Assembly: GCF_011683915.1 (NCBI RefSeq)
Contig: NZ_JAAQPH010000012.1
Location: 1 to 64,000, forward strand
Direction of reading: 5' to 3'
From: Pelagibius litoralis
GTDB taxonomy: Bacteria; Pseudomonadota; Alphaproteobacteria; Kiloniellales; Kiloniellaceae
Length of the DNA: 64,000 nucleotides
Shown piece after piece: positions 2,291 through 43,276 of this stretch. Numbering within the stretch: position 1 is the stretch's first letter; each line of letters begins with the position of its first letter. Made by a program: the position numbers and the translations under genes. The notes beneath the pieces were generated by a model. The model saw only the letters and a program-made list of their open reading frames with translations. It had not been told where the DNA came from and did no database searches.

Positions 2291-3003
2291 CCTCACCCTC
2301 CCGCTGACGCGGGCCCCTCCCTCTCCCACGAAGGGGGAGAGGGAATGACAGCCGCCCTCTTTCGTTTCCCCTTCTCCCTTCAATCAAACGGGCCCAGGCG
2401 GGAGAGGGATCTGCGGTGGCCCCGCCATTACCTCCTCTCCAGAAAGGTGAGGCATTCACGACAGCCTCAATACTTCCCCCTCTCCCCTTGTGGGAGAGGG
2501 CCGGGGTGAGGGGGCTTTTTGTTTCCCTCTCTTCGCCTCTTGGGAGAAGGATTTGTCAGCCTGCCATTCCCCCTCACCCTCCCGCTGACGCGGGCCCCTC
2601 CCTCTCCCACGGAGGGGAGAGGGAATTACAGCCGCCCTCTTTCGTTTCCCCTTCTCCCTTCAATCAAACGGGCCCAGGCGGGAGAGGGATCTGCGGTGGC
2701 CCGGCCATTACCTCCTCTCCAGAAAGGTGAGGCATTCACGACAGCCTCAATACTTCCCCCTCTCCCCTTGTGGGAGAGGGCCGGGGTGAGGGGGCTTTTT
2801 GTTTTCCTCTCTTCCCCTCTTGGGAGAAGGACTTGTCAACCTGCCATTCCCCCTCACCCTCCCACTACGTGGGAAGCTGGTTCCCCCTCACCCTCCCACT
2901 ACGTGGGCCCCTCCCTCTCCCACGAAGGGGGAGAGGGAATGACAGGCGCCCTCTTTGGTTCCCCCTCTCCCCTTGTGGGAGAGGGCCGGGGTGAGGGGGC
3001 TTT
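2291..3003. repeat. Tandem array of a ~281-bp intergenic repeat (about 2.5 copies)
   Basis: The unit beginning CCTCACCCTCCC starts at 2291, 2572 and 2852, giving periods of 281 and 280 bases. The third unit is internally rearranged (CACTACGTGGG replaces CGCTGACGCGGG and is itself doubled). Each unit holds several short palindromes of the type CCCTCTCCC...GGGAGAGGG. Related sequence recurs at 24765-24902, 36885-37085, 37558-37860, 41262-42230 and 46886-47260. Long open frames through it (for example 2519-3613) are low-complexity proline/serine translations and are not genes. Confidence 0.9.
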
Positions 3004-3010
3004 TTGTTTC

Positions 3011-3739
3011 CTACCCTGTCGGCCCGCCTTGCCCCGCCGCCAGACCCCTCAGGTCATCCAGGGCGGCCTCCAGCCACTCGCGGTCCTCGTACATGTAGAT
3101 GCGCCCGGTGCCGCGCCGCGCGGCGACGACGGCGAGGTCGAGCTTGGCGTACAGCCCGGCGACCGTGCGCGCCGGGACGGCGACGGCCTCGCGCACCGCC
3201 TCGCCATAGCGGTAGAAGAGGTCGCGGTCGTGAAGCCATGCGTCCCGGTCGCCGGGGCCGAGCGGTTCGCGCCAGGGTGCCGGCAGCATGTGGGAGGTGT
3301 CGTAGCCCCTGCGGGCATCGCGGATATCGTGCAGGCGCTGGCGCAGGCGCCGGGCGCGGGCGTAGACCCTGCGCCGCTCCAGGGCCACCGCGATGCGGCG
3401 GAACAGCTCGGCGTCGGGGTTGGGCAGCCCCGCATCGGCGGGGCGCGCGGCCAGGGCGGCGAGGGCCGGCAGGGCCAGCCCCAGGGCCGGCAGGGCGGCG
3501 GCGGCGGCCAGCAGGGAGCGGCGGGAGACGGCTTCCGCCGCCCCGGCGTCATGCGCGGACTCGATCCGCGTATCCAGCGGGCGGCCCCCCTCAGCCGTCA
3601 CCCTCGGGCTTGACCCGAGGGCCCATCCCGCAGCCGTCCGGCGCTTGCCGCCGGCGCCGCCGTCCTCCGGGGCGCTTACTGCGTCTGCGGGATCGTTTTC
3701 AGGGAGGAAAGAATCTATGTTACAAGCCGAAGTAGCCAT
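3011..3739 (-). CDS. Exported protein with RR-type signal, paralogue 1 (repeat-inserted)
   Basis: A 242-residue protein of unknown function. After a long N-terminal extension comes a twin-arginine-like signal, SRRSLLAAAAALPALGLALP (about residues 72-91), then an alpha-helical, arginine-rich domain (PNPDAELFRRIAVALERRR to the end) with HMLPAPWREPLGPGDRDAW and IYMYEDREWLEAAL. It is almost identical over the mature part to the protein at 42245-42850. That paralogue has a shorter, unrelated N-terminus. The extra residues here are translated from a palindromic repeat at 3541-3631. It is divergent from a small XRE gene, as in the second copy. Export through Tat is inference: the S-R-R-x-L-L core fits, but the position of the signal, 70 residues in, is unusual. 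Confidence 0.7.
   Translation of the reverse strand: MATSACNIDSFLPENDPADAVSAPEDGGAGGKRRTAAGWALGSSPRVTAEGGRPLDTRIESAHDAGAAEAVSRRSLLAAAAALPALGLALPALAALAARPADAGLPNPDAELFRRIAVALERRRVYARARRLRQRLHDIRDARRGYDTSHMLPAPWREPLGPGDRDAWLHDRDLFYRYGEAVREAVAVPARTVAGLYAKLDLAVVAARRGTGRIYMYEDREWLEAALDDLRGLAAGQGGPTG
3541..3631. repeat. Palindromic repeat inserted in frame within a coding gene
   Basis: Two palindromes, CGCGGA-N5-TCCGCG (3554-3570) and CCCTCGGG-N5-CCCGAGGG (3601-3621), sit inside the 5' part of the gene at 3011-3739. The second has the same core and CTTGA loop as the intergenic twin-palindrome repeats at 41495-42135. In the minus-strand protein it encodes roughly AGWALGSSPRVTAEGGRPLD and the following residues, a segment absent from the paralogue at 42245. 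It resembles the situation of palindromic elements found within Rickettsia genes. That comparison is from general knowledge. Confidence 0.65.
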
Positions 3740-3823
3740 GGCCTGACTCCTCTAAAGTCGGGTTGTGGTCAGGCGCGGGTCGGTGTTACGAGCACCTTTC
3801 CGCGCCGCTAACGCGCATCAATA

Positions 3824-3902: not shown

Positions 3903-4136
3903 ATGAGCCTGACGCCCGAACAATGCCGCGCCGCCCGCGCCCTGCTGAACTGGTCGCAACCCGACCTCGCCAAAGCGTCAGGGATCGGTAGGGCGACCAT
4001 CGCCAACCTGGAACGCGGCGCTCACACACCGCACCCCAGCAACCAAGCCGCCCTCCGCGATGCCCTGGAAGAGGCAGGCATAGAATTCCTCCCCGAAACC
4101 AAATCCAAAGGCGTCGGGGTACGGCTGCGGAAATAG
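3903..4136 (+). CDS. Small XRE-family HTH regulator, copy 1
   Basis: A 77-residue DNA-binding protein made almost only of the XRE/Cro helix-turn-helix: EQCRAARALLNWSQPDLAKA, then SGIGRATIANLERG (recognition helix, about residues 26-40), then a short tail AGIEFLPETKSKGVGVRLRK. ATG 3903 is preferred over an in-frame GTG at 3864 because its paralogue at 43037 begins at the same point (MSLT). The AGIEFLPE tail is characteristic of many alphaproteobacterial short XRE proteins. It is divergent from the exported RR-protein gene, and the pair is repeated at 42245-43276. It probably represses its own and the divergent promoter. Scraps of the same 3' end occur at 7000-7058 and 11038-11087. Confidence 0.85.
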   Translation: MSLTPEQCRAARALLNWSQPDLAKASGIGRATIANLERGAHTPHPSNQAALRDALEEAGIEFLPETKSKGVGVRLRK

Positions 4137-41189: not shown

Positions 41190-42230
41190 CGGGCTTGACC
41201 CTGATATACATGGTTCGATCAGCCCCGAACCTTCGCCGCCAAGCGTCGCAAGGCCGCACCATCCCCCTCACCCCGGCCCTCTCCCACCAGGGGAGAGGGG
41301 GAACCAAAATGAGCCCCCTACTTACCCTCTTCCCACCGTGGAAGAAGCATGCTCCATCAAAGCCGCCGCAAAAACCCTCTCCCCTCCGCGGGAGAGGGAG
41401 GGCCCCGCGCAGCGGGAGGGTGAGGGGGCCTTTGTTCCTTGTTTCACGCACCACCGGACAGCAACCGCACCCCGCCGCCCCACACTCCATCGTCATGCTC
41501 GGGCTTGACCCGAGCATCCATATTTCGGCCCGTCCCGAATCTTCGCCGTCAAGAACCGCACGGCGGCGCAATGGACCCTCGGATCAAGTCCGAGGGTGAC
41601 GGCGGTTTGAGCGGAGAAAGAGGGGAGCGCCCCTTACTTACCCTCTCCCCTCCGTGGGAGAGGGAGGGCCCCGCGCAGCGGGAGGGTGAGGGGGCTTTTT
41701 GTTTCTTGTTTCACGCACCACCGGACAGCAACCGCACCCCGCCGCCCCACACTCCATCGTCATGCTCGGGCTTGACCCGAGCATCCATATTTCGGCAAGT
41801 CCCGAGCCTTTACCGTTAAGCTCAGAACAGCGGCACAATGGACCCTCGGATCAAGTCCGAGGGTGACGGCGGTTTGAGCGGAGAAAGAGGGGAGCGCCCC
41901 TTACTTACCCTCTCCCCTCCGTGGGAGAGGGAGGGCCCCGCGCAGCGGGAGGGTGAGGGGGCTTTTTGTTTCCTGTTCCGCGCTCCACCGGACAGCAACC
42001 GCACCCCGCCGCCCCACACTCCATCGTCATGCTCGGGCTTGACCCGAGCATCCATATTTCGGCAAGTCCCGAACCTTTACCGTTAAGCTCAGAACAGCGG
42101 CGCAATGGACCCTCGGATCAAGTCCGAGGGTGACGGCGGTTTGAGCGGAGAGGGAGGGCAGCGACTCCTACTTACCCTCTCCCCTCCGCGGGAGAGGGAG
42201 GGCCCCGCGCAGCGGGAGGGTGAGGGGGAA
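41190..42230. repeat. Tandem array: three 267-bp units plus a degenerate leading unit
   Basis: Units with the palindrome ATGCTCGGG-CTTGA-CCCGAGCAT recur at 41495, 41762 and 42029, exactly 267 bases apart, covering 41429-42229. Each unit has a second palindrome ACCCTCGGA-TCAAG-TCCGAGGGT (41575-41597 in the first) and a CCCTCTCCC-type block. A degenerate unit stands at 41190-41428. There are no unique spacers, so this is not a CRISPR. Apparent genes through it are repeats of the same translation. It lies between dnaE2 and the RR-protein gene. Confidence 0.92.
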
Positions 42231-42244
42231 GCCCCCGCCGCGCC

Positions 42245-42850
42245 TTACCCCGCCGCCAGCCCCCTCAGGTCTTCCAGGGCGGCCTCCAGCCACTCGCGGT
42301 CTTCGTACATGTAGATGCGCCCGGTGCCGCGCCGCGCGGCGACGACGGCGAGATCGAGCTTGGCGTACAGCCCGGCGACCGTGCGCGCCGGGACGGCGAC
42401 GGCCTCGCGCACCGCCTCGCCATAGCGGTAGAAGAGGTCGCGGTCGTGAAGCCATGCGTCCCGGTCGCCGGGGCCGAGCGGTTCGCGCCAGGGTGCCGGC
42501 AGCATGTGGGAGGTGTCGTAGCCCCTGCGGGCATCGCGGATGTCGTGGAGGCGCTGGCGCAGGCGCCGGGCGCGGGCGTAGACCTTGCGCCGCTCCAGGG
42601 CCACCGCGATACGGCGGAACAGCTCGGCGTCGGGGTTGGGCAGCCCCGCATCGGCAGGGGGCGCGGCCAGGGCGGCGAGGGCCGGCAGGGCCAGCCCCAG
42701 GGCCGGCAGGGCGGCGGCGGCGGCCAGCAGGGTGCGGCGGGAAAGGGTTATGCCGAGGCCCGGCGCGGCCGGCCCGGATTCCCCAGGCGTTTCGGCGGGT
42801 TGATCGTTGCTGGAAGGGGGCGAATCCGTGGTAAAGCTGCTGATAGCCAT
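42245..42850 (-). CDS. Exported protein with RR-type signal, paralogue 2
   Basis: A 201-residue protein almost identical over its last 170 residues to the one at 3011-3739. The signal SRRTLLAAAAALPALGLALP begins at about residue 37, with a short Ser/Pro-rich leader (MAISSFTTDSPPSSNDQPAE). This is the more likely original form, since it lacks the repeat-encoded insertion of copy 1. The helical domain has the same HMLPAPWREPLGPGDRD and YMYEDREWLEAALEDLRGL. The function is unknown. The first 60 bases before the ATG are also conserved between the two copies (TGACTCCT ... GGTCAGGCGCGG). Divergent from a small XRE gene. Confidence 0.75.
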   Translation of the reverse strand: MAISSFTTDSPPSSNDQPAETPGESGPAAPGLGITLSRRTLLAAAAALPALGLALPALAALAAPPADAGLPNPDAELFRRIAVALERRKVYARARRLRQRLHDIRDARRGYDTSHMLPAPWREPLGPGDRDAWLHDRDLFYRYGEAVREAVAVPARTVAGLYAKLDLAVVAARRGTGRIYMYEDREWLEAALEDLRGLAAG

Positions 42851-42965
42851 GACCTGACTCCTAGTGCAGTCGGGTTGCGGTCAGGCGCGGGGCGGGTGTT
42901 CCAGCACCCCCTCGTGCCGCTCGGCCCCGGGCACAGCTTGCGCCCGGAGGTTGAAATGCTACCAT

Positions 42966-43036: not shown

Positions 43037-43276
43037 ATGAGCCTCACCACCAAAGAACAACTGCGCGCCGCCCGCGCCATGCTGGACTGGTCGCAGCAAG
43101 ACCTCGCCGACCACAGCGGCGTTTCCCTCAGCAGCATCTTTCGTCTTGAGAACGGCAGCGGCCCCCTGGCCATCCGCCTGGACACCCTCCAAAAACTCCA
43201 AACCACCCTGGAAAAAGCCGGCATCCTCTTCCTCCCCGAAAACGGCGGCGGCCCGGGCTTGAGAACGCGGAAGTAG
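43037..43276 (+). CDS. Small XRE-family HTH regulator, copy 2
   Basis: A 79-residue XRE protein: LRAARAMLDWSQQDLADHSG, then VSLSSIFRLENGSGPLAIRLDTLQKLQTTLEKAGILFLPEN and a GPGLRTRK tail. It is homologous to the gene at 3903-4136 but more divergent than the neighbouring RR-protein is, which suggests that the regulators changed faster or have different origins. ATG 43037 was chosen by alignment with copy 1 (MSLT). It probably represses its own and the divergent promoter. Confidence 0.85.
   Translation: MSLTTKEQLRAARAMLDWSQQDLADHSGVSLSSIFRLENGSGPLAIRLDTLQKLQTTLEKAGILFLPENGGGPGLRTRK

Follow-up and report, generated by a model that had tools for sequence, protein, structure and literature searches.

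The closest described relatives of the repeats reported here are the CGTC REPs, which, in the excerpts of the survey by Di Nocera, De Gregorio and Rocco (2013; PMC3733652) drawn on here, consist of an unpaired CGTC (or TGTC, CCTC) tag, an 8-9-bp stem closed by a 4-5-nt loop and a CCA tail, complementary A/T residues at stem positions one and two being almost invariable. Head-to-head dimers predominate among these elements and HT dimers are negligible. The same excerpts describe GTAG and CGTC REPs located within genes of several species, and assign two Rickettsia families, RPE-4 and RPE-6, to the CGTC superfamily. For most REPs located at the N terminus of a protein, a wrong start call was deemed the likely explanation, and those of some species were suggested to be mostly post-transcriptional control elements. 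The other system relevant to this locus is the SymE/SymR pair, in which, according to the part of Kawano et al. (2007; PMC1891008) used here, symE carries the SymR promoter within its coding sequence.

The gene studied here, C3a, belongs to Pelagibius litoralis and lies in the window (the whole 64,000-nt stretch of DNA analyzed; Table 1). The initial annotation had placed an RR-signal protein at positions 3011-3739, and these coordinates are right, the minus strand reading as 242 codons with no internal stop. An SRRxLL motif followed by a hydrophobic stretch, a pattern recognized by eye, would make up a putative Tat signal. Searches of Pfam, NCBIfam and PHROGs assigned no family to its product (P0001), nor did Pfam find one for P0002. 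The AlphaFold model of P0001, built on an alignment of 3 sequences, is poor (mean pLDDT 51.7) and all-helical, with residues 1-74 below 50. Codon-position G+C is 0.83/0.56/0.93 in the core of the gene and 0.72/0.65/0.72, which is not coding-like, in the leader. The protein family has seven matches in its own genome and matches in 4 of 142 other genomes, two of them clear (G006 and G059). Among the named genome contigs searched, a single relative was found on a Pelagibius sp. MAG contig (Rhodovibrionaceae), with the same protein as that of G006.

Table 1. Features of the C3a and C3b loci (positions in the window)
Feature	Position	Strand	Remarks
RR-signal protein gene C3a (P0001)	3011..3739	-	242 aa; leader 1-71, SRR 72-74, helical core (low-confidence model)
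SRRSLL codons, twin-arginine-like motif	3509..3526	-	start of the near-identical stretch common to C3a and its paralogue
CGTC-type REP a	3547..3576	-	CGTC head 3547, 9/9 pairs including G-U, loop CTCGA, tail CCA; about residues 55-65
Spacer between directly repeated REPs b and a	3577..3595	-	19 nt
CGTC-type REP b	3596..3625	-	CGTC head 3596, 8/9 stem pairs, loop CTTGA, tail CCA; residues 39-48
TG-N-TA motif opposite codons 5-8	3718..3726	+	conserved; might act as a -10-like element of the candidate antisense RNA
Conserved 5' cassette, Shine-Dalgarno and ATGGCT	3732..3807	-	RF00043-like, 48.0 bits (gathering 55)
Candidate antisense RNA over Shine-Dalgarno and start codon	3734..3809	+	SymR-like (RF01809), 33.6 bits (gathering 61)
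Divergent HTH_3 (Xre-like) gene of C3a	3903..4136	+	Pfam
Tail-to-tail CGTC-type REP pairs in three units, spaced by 267 nt	41491..42135		six copies
Paralogue C3b	42245..42850	-	201 aa, without repeats
Second RF00043-like cassette	42843..42919	-	37.0 bits (gathering 55)
Divergent HTH_3 (Xre-like) gene of C3b	43037..43276	+	Pfam

The leader of C3a was said to carry roughly 35 extra residues ahead of its signal, and the figure is exactly 35 (the RR motif is at residue 73 in C3a and at residue 38 in the paralogue C3b); 6 further extra residues are found at the C terminus. The palindromes to which they had been attributed, at 3554-3570 and 3601-3621, are present and in frame, but each is part of a full 30-nt repeat, and only about 21 of the extra residues are REP encoded, the remainder being the spacer and a low-complexity linker. 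The second palindrome had been singled out as akin to the intergenic repeats of the window; it is, but both belong to the family. The CGTC tag is found in both in-gene REPs and in all six copies at 41491-42135, the CCA tail in 8 of 8 copies checked, and the in-gene REPs have stems of 8-9 bp and loops of 5 nt. REPs a and b differ in the frame in which the repeat is read; in one frame of its coding-sense strand, 32 of the 33 copies have a stop, and C3a uses the other two. Chance palindromes can be ruled out: with the shape xGTC-9-5-9-CCA (at least 8/9 pairs), which occurs twice in C3a, dinucleotide shuffles gave at least one copy in 1 of 2,000 cases and two copies in none, and genome-wide the repeat pattern has 33 matches and its reverse none.

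By their sequence, the C3a palindromes fit the CGTC-REP superfamily. They share with its members the tag, a 9-bp stem, the 5-nt loop, the CCA tail, a high copy number with most copies outside genes, and the occasional copy inside one; known CGTC REPs also come mostly from Alphaproteobacteria. They differ in that the in-gene pair is direct with a 19-nt spacer, and in the loss of the first A-T pair from REP b (the first two stem positions are AT...AT in REP a and AC...GC in REP b, the second pair of which is C-G). In-frame palindromes in open reading frames are likewise common to the Rickettsia families RPE-4 and RPE-6, so that the comparison with RPEs made at the outset is closer than an analogy, a kinship that comes from the published classification (PMC3733652). 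The host here is not a Rickettsia, and among the 23 cassette ORFs examined (see below) just 2 contain REPs. The accompanying statement that reports of such insertions are rare for organisms other than Rickettsia fails, since the available parts of the 2013 survey already describe intragenic REPs, CGTC elements included, in several species; C3a is therefore a further case of a known phenomenon. The sections consulted of PMC12306157, PMC2759123 and PMC2864571 contain nothing that alters the reading.

A degenerate repeat pattern allowing up to 3 mismatches gave the 33 matches mentioned above in the 6.03-Mb genome. The repeat was found in 8 of 8 genomes of the genus examined and in none of the controls. 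As of 2013, CGTC REPs had no known dedicated transposase. With CGTC taken as the head, a definition from which that of the published survey may differ, neighboring REPs form 11 tail-to-tail pairs (27-52 nt), 5 head-to-head pairs and 3 direct pairs, two of the latter being the in-gene pairs of C3a and of a third gene copy on contig C44, and the other a pair spaced by 98 nt outside these genes. Under that definition, this arrangement would be at odds with the published predominance of head-to-head dimers. Copying of the pair from a dimer elsewhere in the genome was rejected: besides C44, no direct pair with a 19-nt spacer occurs among the 33 copies. A codon-position G+C survey of 60 regions in three relatives found none of 67 REP copies to be coding-like on both sides, a measure so insensitive that the left side of C3a itself (0.68/0.62/0.62) would fail it. 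Eight of these copies lie in an ORF that is coding-like on one side, and in every one of the six such ORFs scanned the best Pfam stretch begins after the repeat. A scan of 10 repeat-spanning ORFs selected from the own genome gave no family for 8, a sub-threshold match for one and CbiC for one, in which the repeat is located ahead of the domain. The case of C3a thus looks unusual within the genus, as far as an insensitive composition test can tell.

C3b had been described as a near-identical paralogue that lacks the repeat. The near-identity stands from the RR motif onward (about 97.6-97.8% at the nucleotide level), but the leader has diverged (47%); C3b is indeed free of repeats, but the copy on contig C44 has both, and the C3b leader, being diverged, is not a clean empty site. 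The C44 copy encodes 265 aa, and its two repeats, located at nucleotides 166 and 215 of the ORF, are in frame. It is 95.5% identical to C3a from about 40 nt inside the ORF and 76.8% before. In the DNA alignment of their leaders, these two copies differ in length at two places, by 51 and 18 nt, each a multiple of three (a chance of 1 in 9), the longer change corresponding to tandem units; 11 of 213 aligned bases differ, and 7 of the 9 changed codons are non-synonymous. In the core, 7 of 513 bases differ, 6 of them at third positions, although the number is small. One stem pair of REP b is changed to an uncompensated C-A mismatch in C44. The borders of identity between leader and core are sharp among the three copies and resemble gene-conversion tracts, and this mosaic suggests that gene conversion has taken place between them; the REPs common to C3a and C44 are for that reason no proof of long retention. 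Two further observations concern these genes. The leader of the C44 copy, a gene located at L010 1261-2055, is enlarged in frame by tandem PENQ/PENR units, and a second repeat family (CCCTCTCCC...GGGAGAGGG and CCCCTCACCC) is seen by eye in several copies beside both C3a and C3b, at 2400-3010 and 41250-42240.

The start of C3a is marked by a conserved upstream pattern, GCCTGACC..AACCCGACT(0-8)GGAGTC, found 13 times in the own genome, in 5 of 142 other genomes and in none of the controls. The hexamer ATGGCT, which was outside the search pattern, follows this element of about 75 nt in all 23 copies examined of the 24 listed, and the remaining one (L190) has it too. The proteins encoded behind ATGGCT differ, some being RR-signal proteins, which by eye fall into two or more sequence types with a possible distant relationship, and others HTH-like, a term that for two proteins with no Pfam match rests on their similarity by eye to the Pfam HTH_3 genes. 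Ten residues separate the ATG from SRR in 10 of 13 RR-type cassette ORFs, a count that leaves out L183, in which the number is also 10; the residues before SRR are 36, 71 and 94 in C3b, C3a and C44, respectively, and HTH-like ORFs have 27-47 before the domain. L170, a shortened HTH-like cassette ORF (42 aa, compared with 120 aa in its close relative L169), is in neither the RR-type nor the HTH-like count. Between the C3a start and SRR, the only ATG, GTG or TTG codon is GTG47, which lies within REP b with GAGG abutting it, and there is also a CTG55. Considering the conserved element with its ATGGCT, the short leaders of the RR-type ORFs and the scarcity of alternative codons, position 3739 is very probably the true start, and translation would include the REPs. 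The view that the repeats sit in a protein-coding frame is thus borne out in that the frames are open and the start is conserved, translation itself being inferred from the sequence.

The conserved element covers the Shine-Dalgarno sequence and the start codon, and at C3a its mRNA strand resembles RF00043 (R1162-like plasmid antisense RNA) and its opposite strand RF01809 (SymR). At 18 further loci searched against Rfam all scores were below the cut-offs, those of RF01809 reaching 47.4 of 61 bits. In the own genome, 1 of 15 RF00043 matches passes its cut-off of 55 (C61:261758-261832, 61.3 bits), and the pattern and RF00043 searches combined give 16 cassette places. RF00043 matched 5 of 58 genomes, the own one included, and none of 14 control genomes. 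RF01809, searched with stricter filters, matched 4 of 58 genomes and, among the controls, Escherichia coli alone; its one match in the own genome is at none of the listed cassettes. The consensus fold of the 21 full-length copies (L180 and L183, cut by contig ends, were left out of the 23) has an energy of -40.2 kcal/mol on the antisense strand, a value reached by none of 200 column shuffles (mean -8.4, standard deviation 2.7), and of -11.5 kcal/mol on the sense strand, reached by 3 of 200. Taken singly, all 21 copies also fold more stably on the antisense strand (mean -45.5 versus -32.0 kcal/mol). The structure comprises 422 Watson-Crick, 110 GU, 2 AC and 12 other cells, a count that leans toward the antisense strand, from which the structure was derived; the energy difference is independent of it. 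Despite the differing proteins, all 23 copies have the same bases, T, A, C and A, at codon positions 6.3, 7.1, 7.3 and 8.1; on the other strand these read TG-N-TA.

From these features we infer a candidate antisense RNA over the Shine-Dalgarno sequence and start codon, with TG-N-TA, at a guess, as its promoter, and the element looks like an antisense-RNA start cassette common to different genes. Like SymE/SymR and the R1162-like RNA, it is about 75-77 nt long, covers the Shine-Dalgarno sequence and start codon and is found in many genome copies, and the promoter-like motif in the first codons recalls the SymR promoter inside symE, as given in the part of Kawano et al. used here. Unlike in that system, the downstream proteins are not SymE (P0001 and P0002 have no Pfam family and the low-confidence model of P0001 is all-helical, with no AbrB-fold SymE encountered downstream of the cassette), and most cassettes score below the Rfam gathering values. 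A literature search combining SymR, antisense RNA and Alphaproteobacteria found no reports, and the matches under RF00043 names were off point, judging by their listing.

Six of the 12 REP clusters of the own genome lie within 1 kb of one of the 16 cassettes, with 0.07 cassettes expected under a uniform null, and no listed REP lies within that distance of 10 of these cassettes. In G005, 5 of 30 clusters lie by its 10 cassettes (0.12 expected). The in-gene pairs account for two of the six own clusters; once these are removed, 4 cassettes are left where 0.06 would be expected, and a tenfold larger expectation, meant to allow for the location of REPs between genes, gives a P of 0.0025. The 33 pattern-matched REPs were used for this, leaving out a copy on contig C17 and weaker copies. 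Clusters within 1-1.5 kb of cassettes are seen on contigs C3, C16, C33, C44 and C61 of the own genome and C9, C10, C11, C15 and C19 of G005. The association was noticed before testing, among loci that are partly paralogous, so we regard it as a lead.

We consider it probable that, taken as a whole, C3a combines a translated, near-neutral REP pair in a tolerant linker with a start module repressed by an antisense RNA. Its extra leader residues would mostly be a directly repeated CGTC-type REP pair, translated from the start at 3739 and set in a linker under low constraint that joins a fixed start module (the element of about 75 nt, ATGGCT and some 8 codons) to the twin-arginine-like signal. Since the leader changes freely and is modeled as disordered, the repeats are most likely a decoration of a tolerant linker; a REP entering such a leader, variable in length, fast evolving and modeled as unstructured, would cost little. 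The insert, close to a neutral decoration, would have been kept because both REPs lie in open frames, C3a and C44 would share it by duplication or gene conversion, and a SymR/R1162-like antisense RNA across the Shine-Dalgarno sequence and start codon would lower expression. Several observations count against this explanation. The identity of C3a and C44 begins only about 40 nt into the ORF, so their shared REPs may reflect recent gene conversion; the two in-frame length changes carry the modest chance given above; REP b is without its terminal A-T pair; the codon-position G+C of the leader is not coding-like; the Rfam matches at both cassettes of the window are below the gathering scores; and the RF01809 genome search found no cassette in the own genome.

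The REPs might instead act as nucleic-acid hairpins that slow or attenuate expression, their translation being incidental, as the suggestion of post-transcriptional control in the available text of PMC3733652 would have it. REPs a and b do form strong hairpins in the folded 5' region of the predicted mRNA, but the overall fold is just modestly better than shuffles (z -2.0, with 6 of 200 as good), the stem mismatch of C44 is uncompensated and 21 of 23 cassette ORFs have no internal REP, which makes this role unlikely. That the start is mis-assigned and the REPs belong to an untranslated leader is very improbable, even though this is the usual explanation of N-terminal REPs in the excerpts of that survey and agrees with the leader composition: ATGGCT follows the conserved element in all 23 copies, in front of different proteins, ten RR-type relatives have the same ATG 10 residues ahead of SRR, and initiation downstream would be left with a badly placed GTG inside a REP or with CTG55. 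The repeat-bearing genes could also be decaying pseudogenes that are in frame by accident. Some cassette genes look broken, given that L170 is shortened with respect to L169, other ORFs are short (L182, 29 aa; L185, 36 aa), and an insert of such composition would often be open by chance. However, the cores of C3a and C44 are intact, with the few differences concentrated at third positions, and both leaders are open despite their separate changes, so we regard decay as improbable.

Inverted repeats are frequent in operators, and a divergent HTH_3 gene is found upstream of both C3a and C3b, so that the conserved 5' element might serve the divergent Xre regulator as an operator or, considering that RF00043 scores on the mRNA strand, be a cis-acting mRNA leader, in place of an antisense RNA. 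We hold this rather unlikely: the consensus fold is far stronger on the antisense strand, the pairs kept as G-U there are A-C mismatches on the sense strand, a DNA operator would show no strand bias, and the SymR and R1162 models match, albeit mostly below their cut-offs.

For the genus (Rhodospirillales), a wider reading is possible, though on the whole doubtful, in which a portable cassette (R1162/SymR-like antisense RNA, Shine-Dalgarno, ATGGCT and some 8 codons whose bases contain the antisense promoter) is placed on different small proteins through hypervariable linkers, the cassette loci are preferred homes of CGTC REPs, and REPs landing in the linkers are translated; the cassette loci may even take part in REP spread. 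As N-terminal REPs have mostly been blamed on wrong starts, an objection that the conserved element at the start of C3a makes unlikely, this gene is a clean case for a REP-encoded peptide. More surprising is the antisense start cassette, together with its association with REPs. Should the antisense RNA prove real, different chromosomal genes would be preceded by a switch of the plasmid-copy-control or SymE-SymR kind and, if the association is true, the same cassette loci would attract CGTC REPs.
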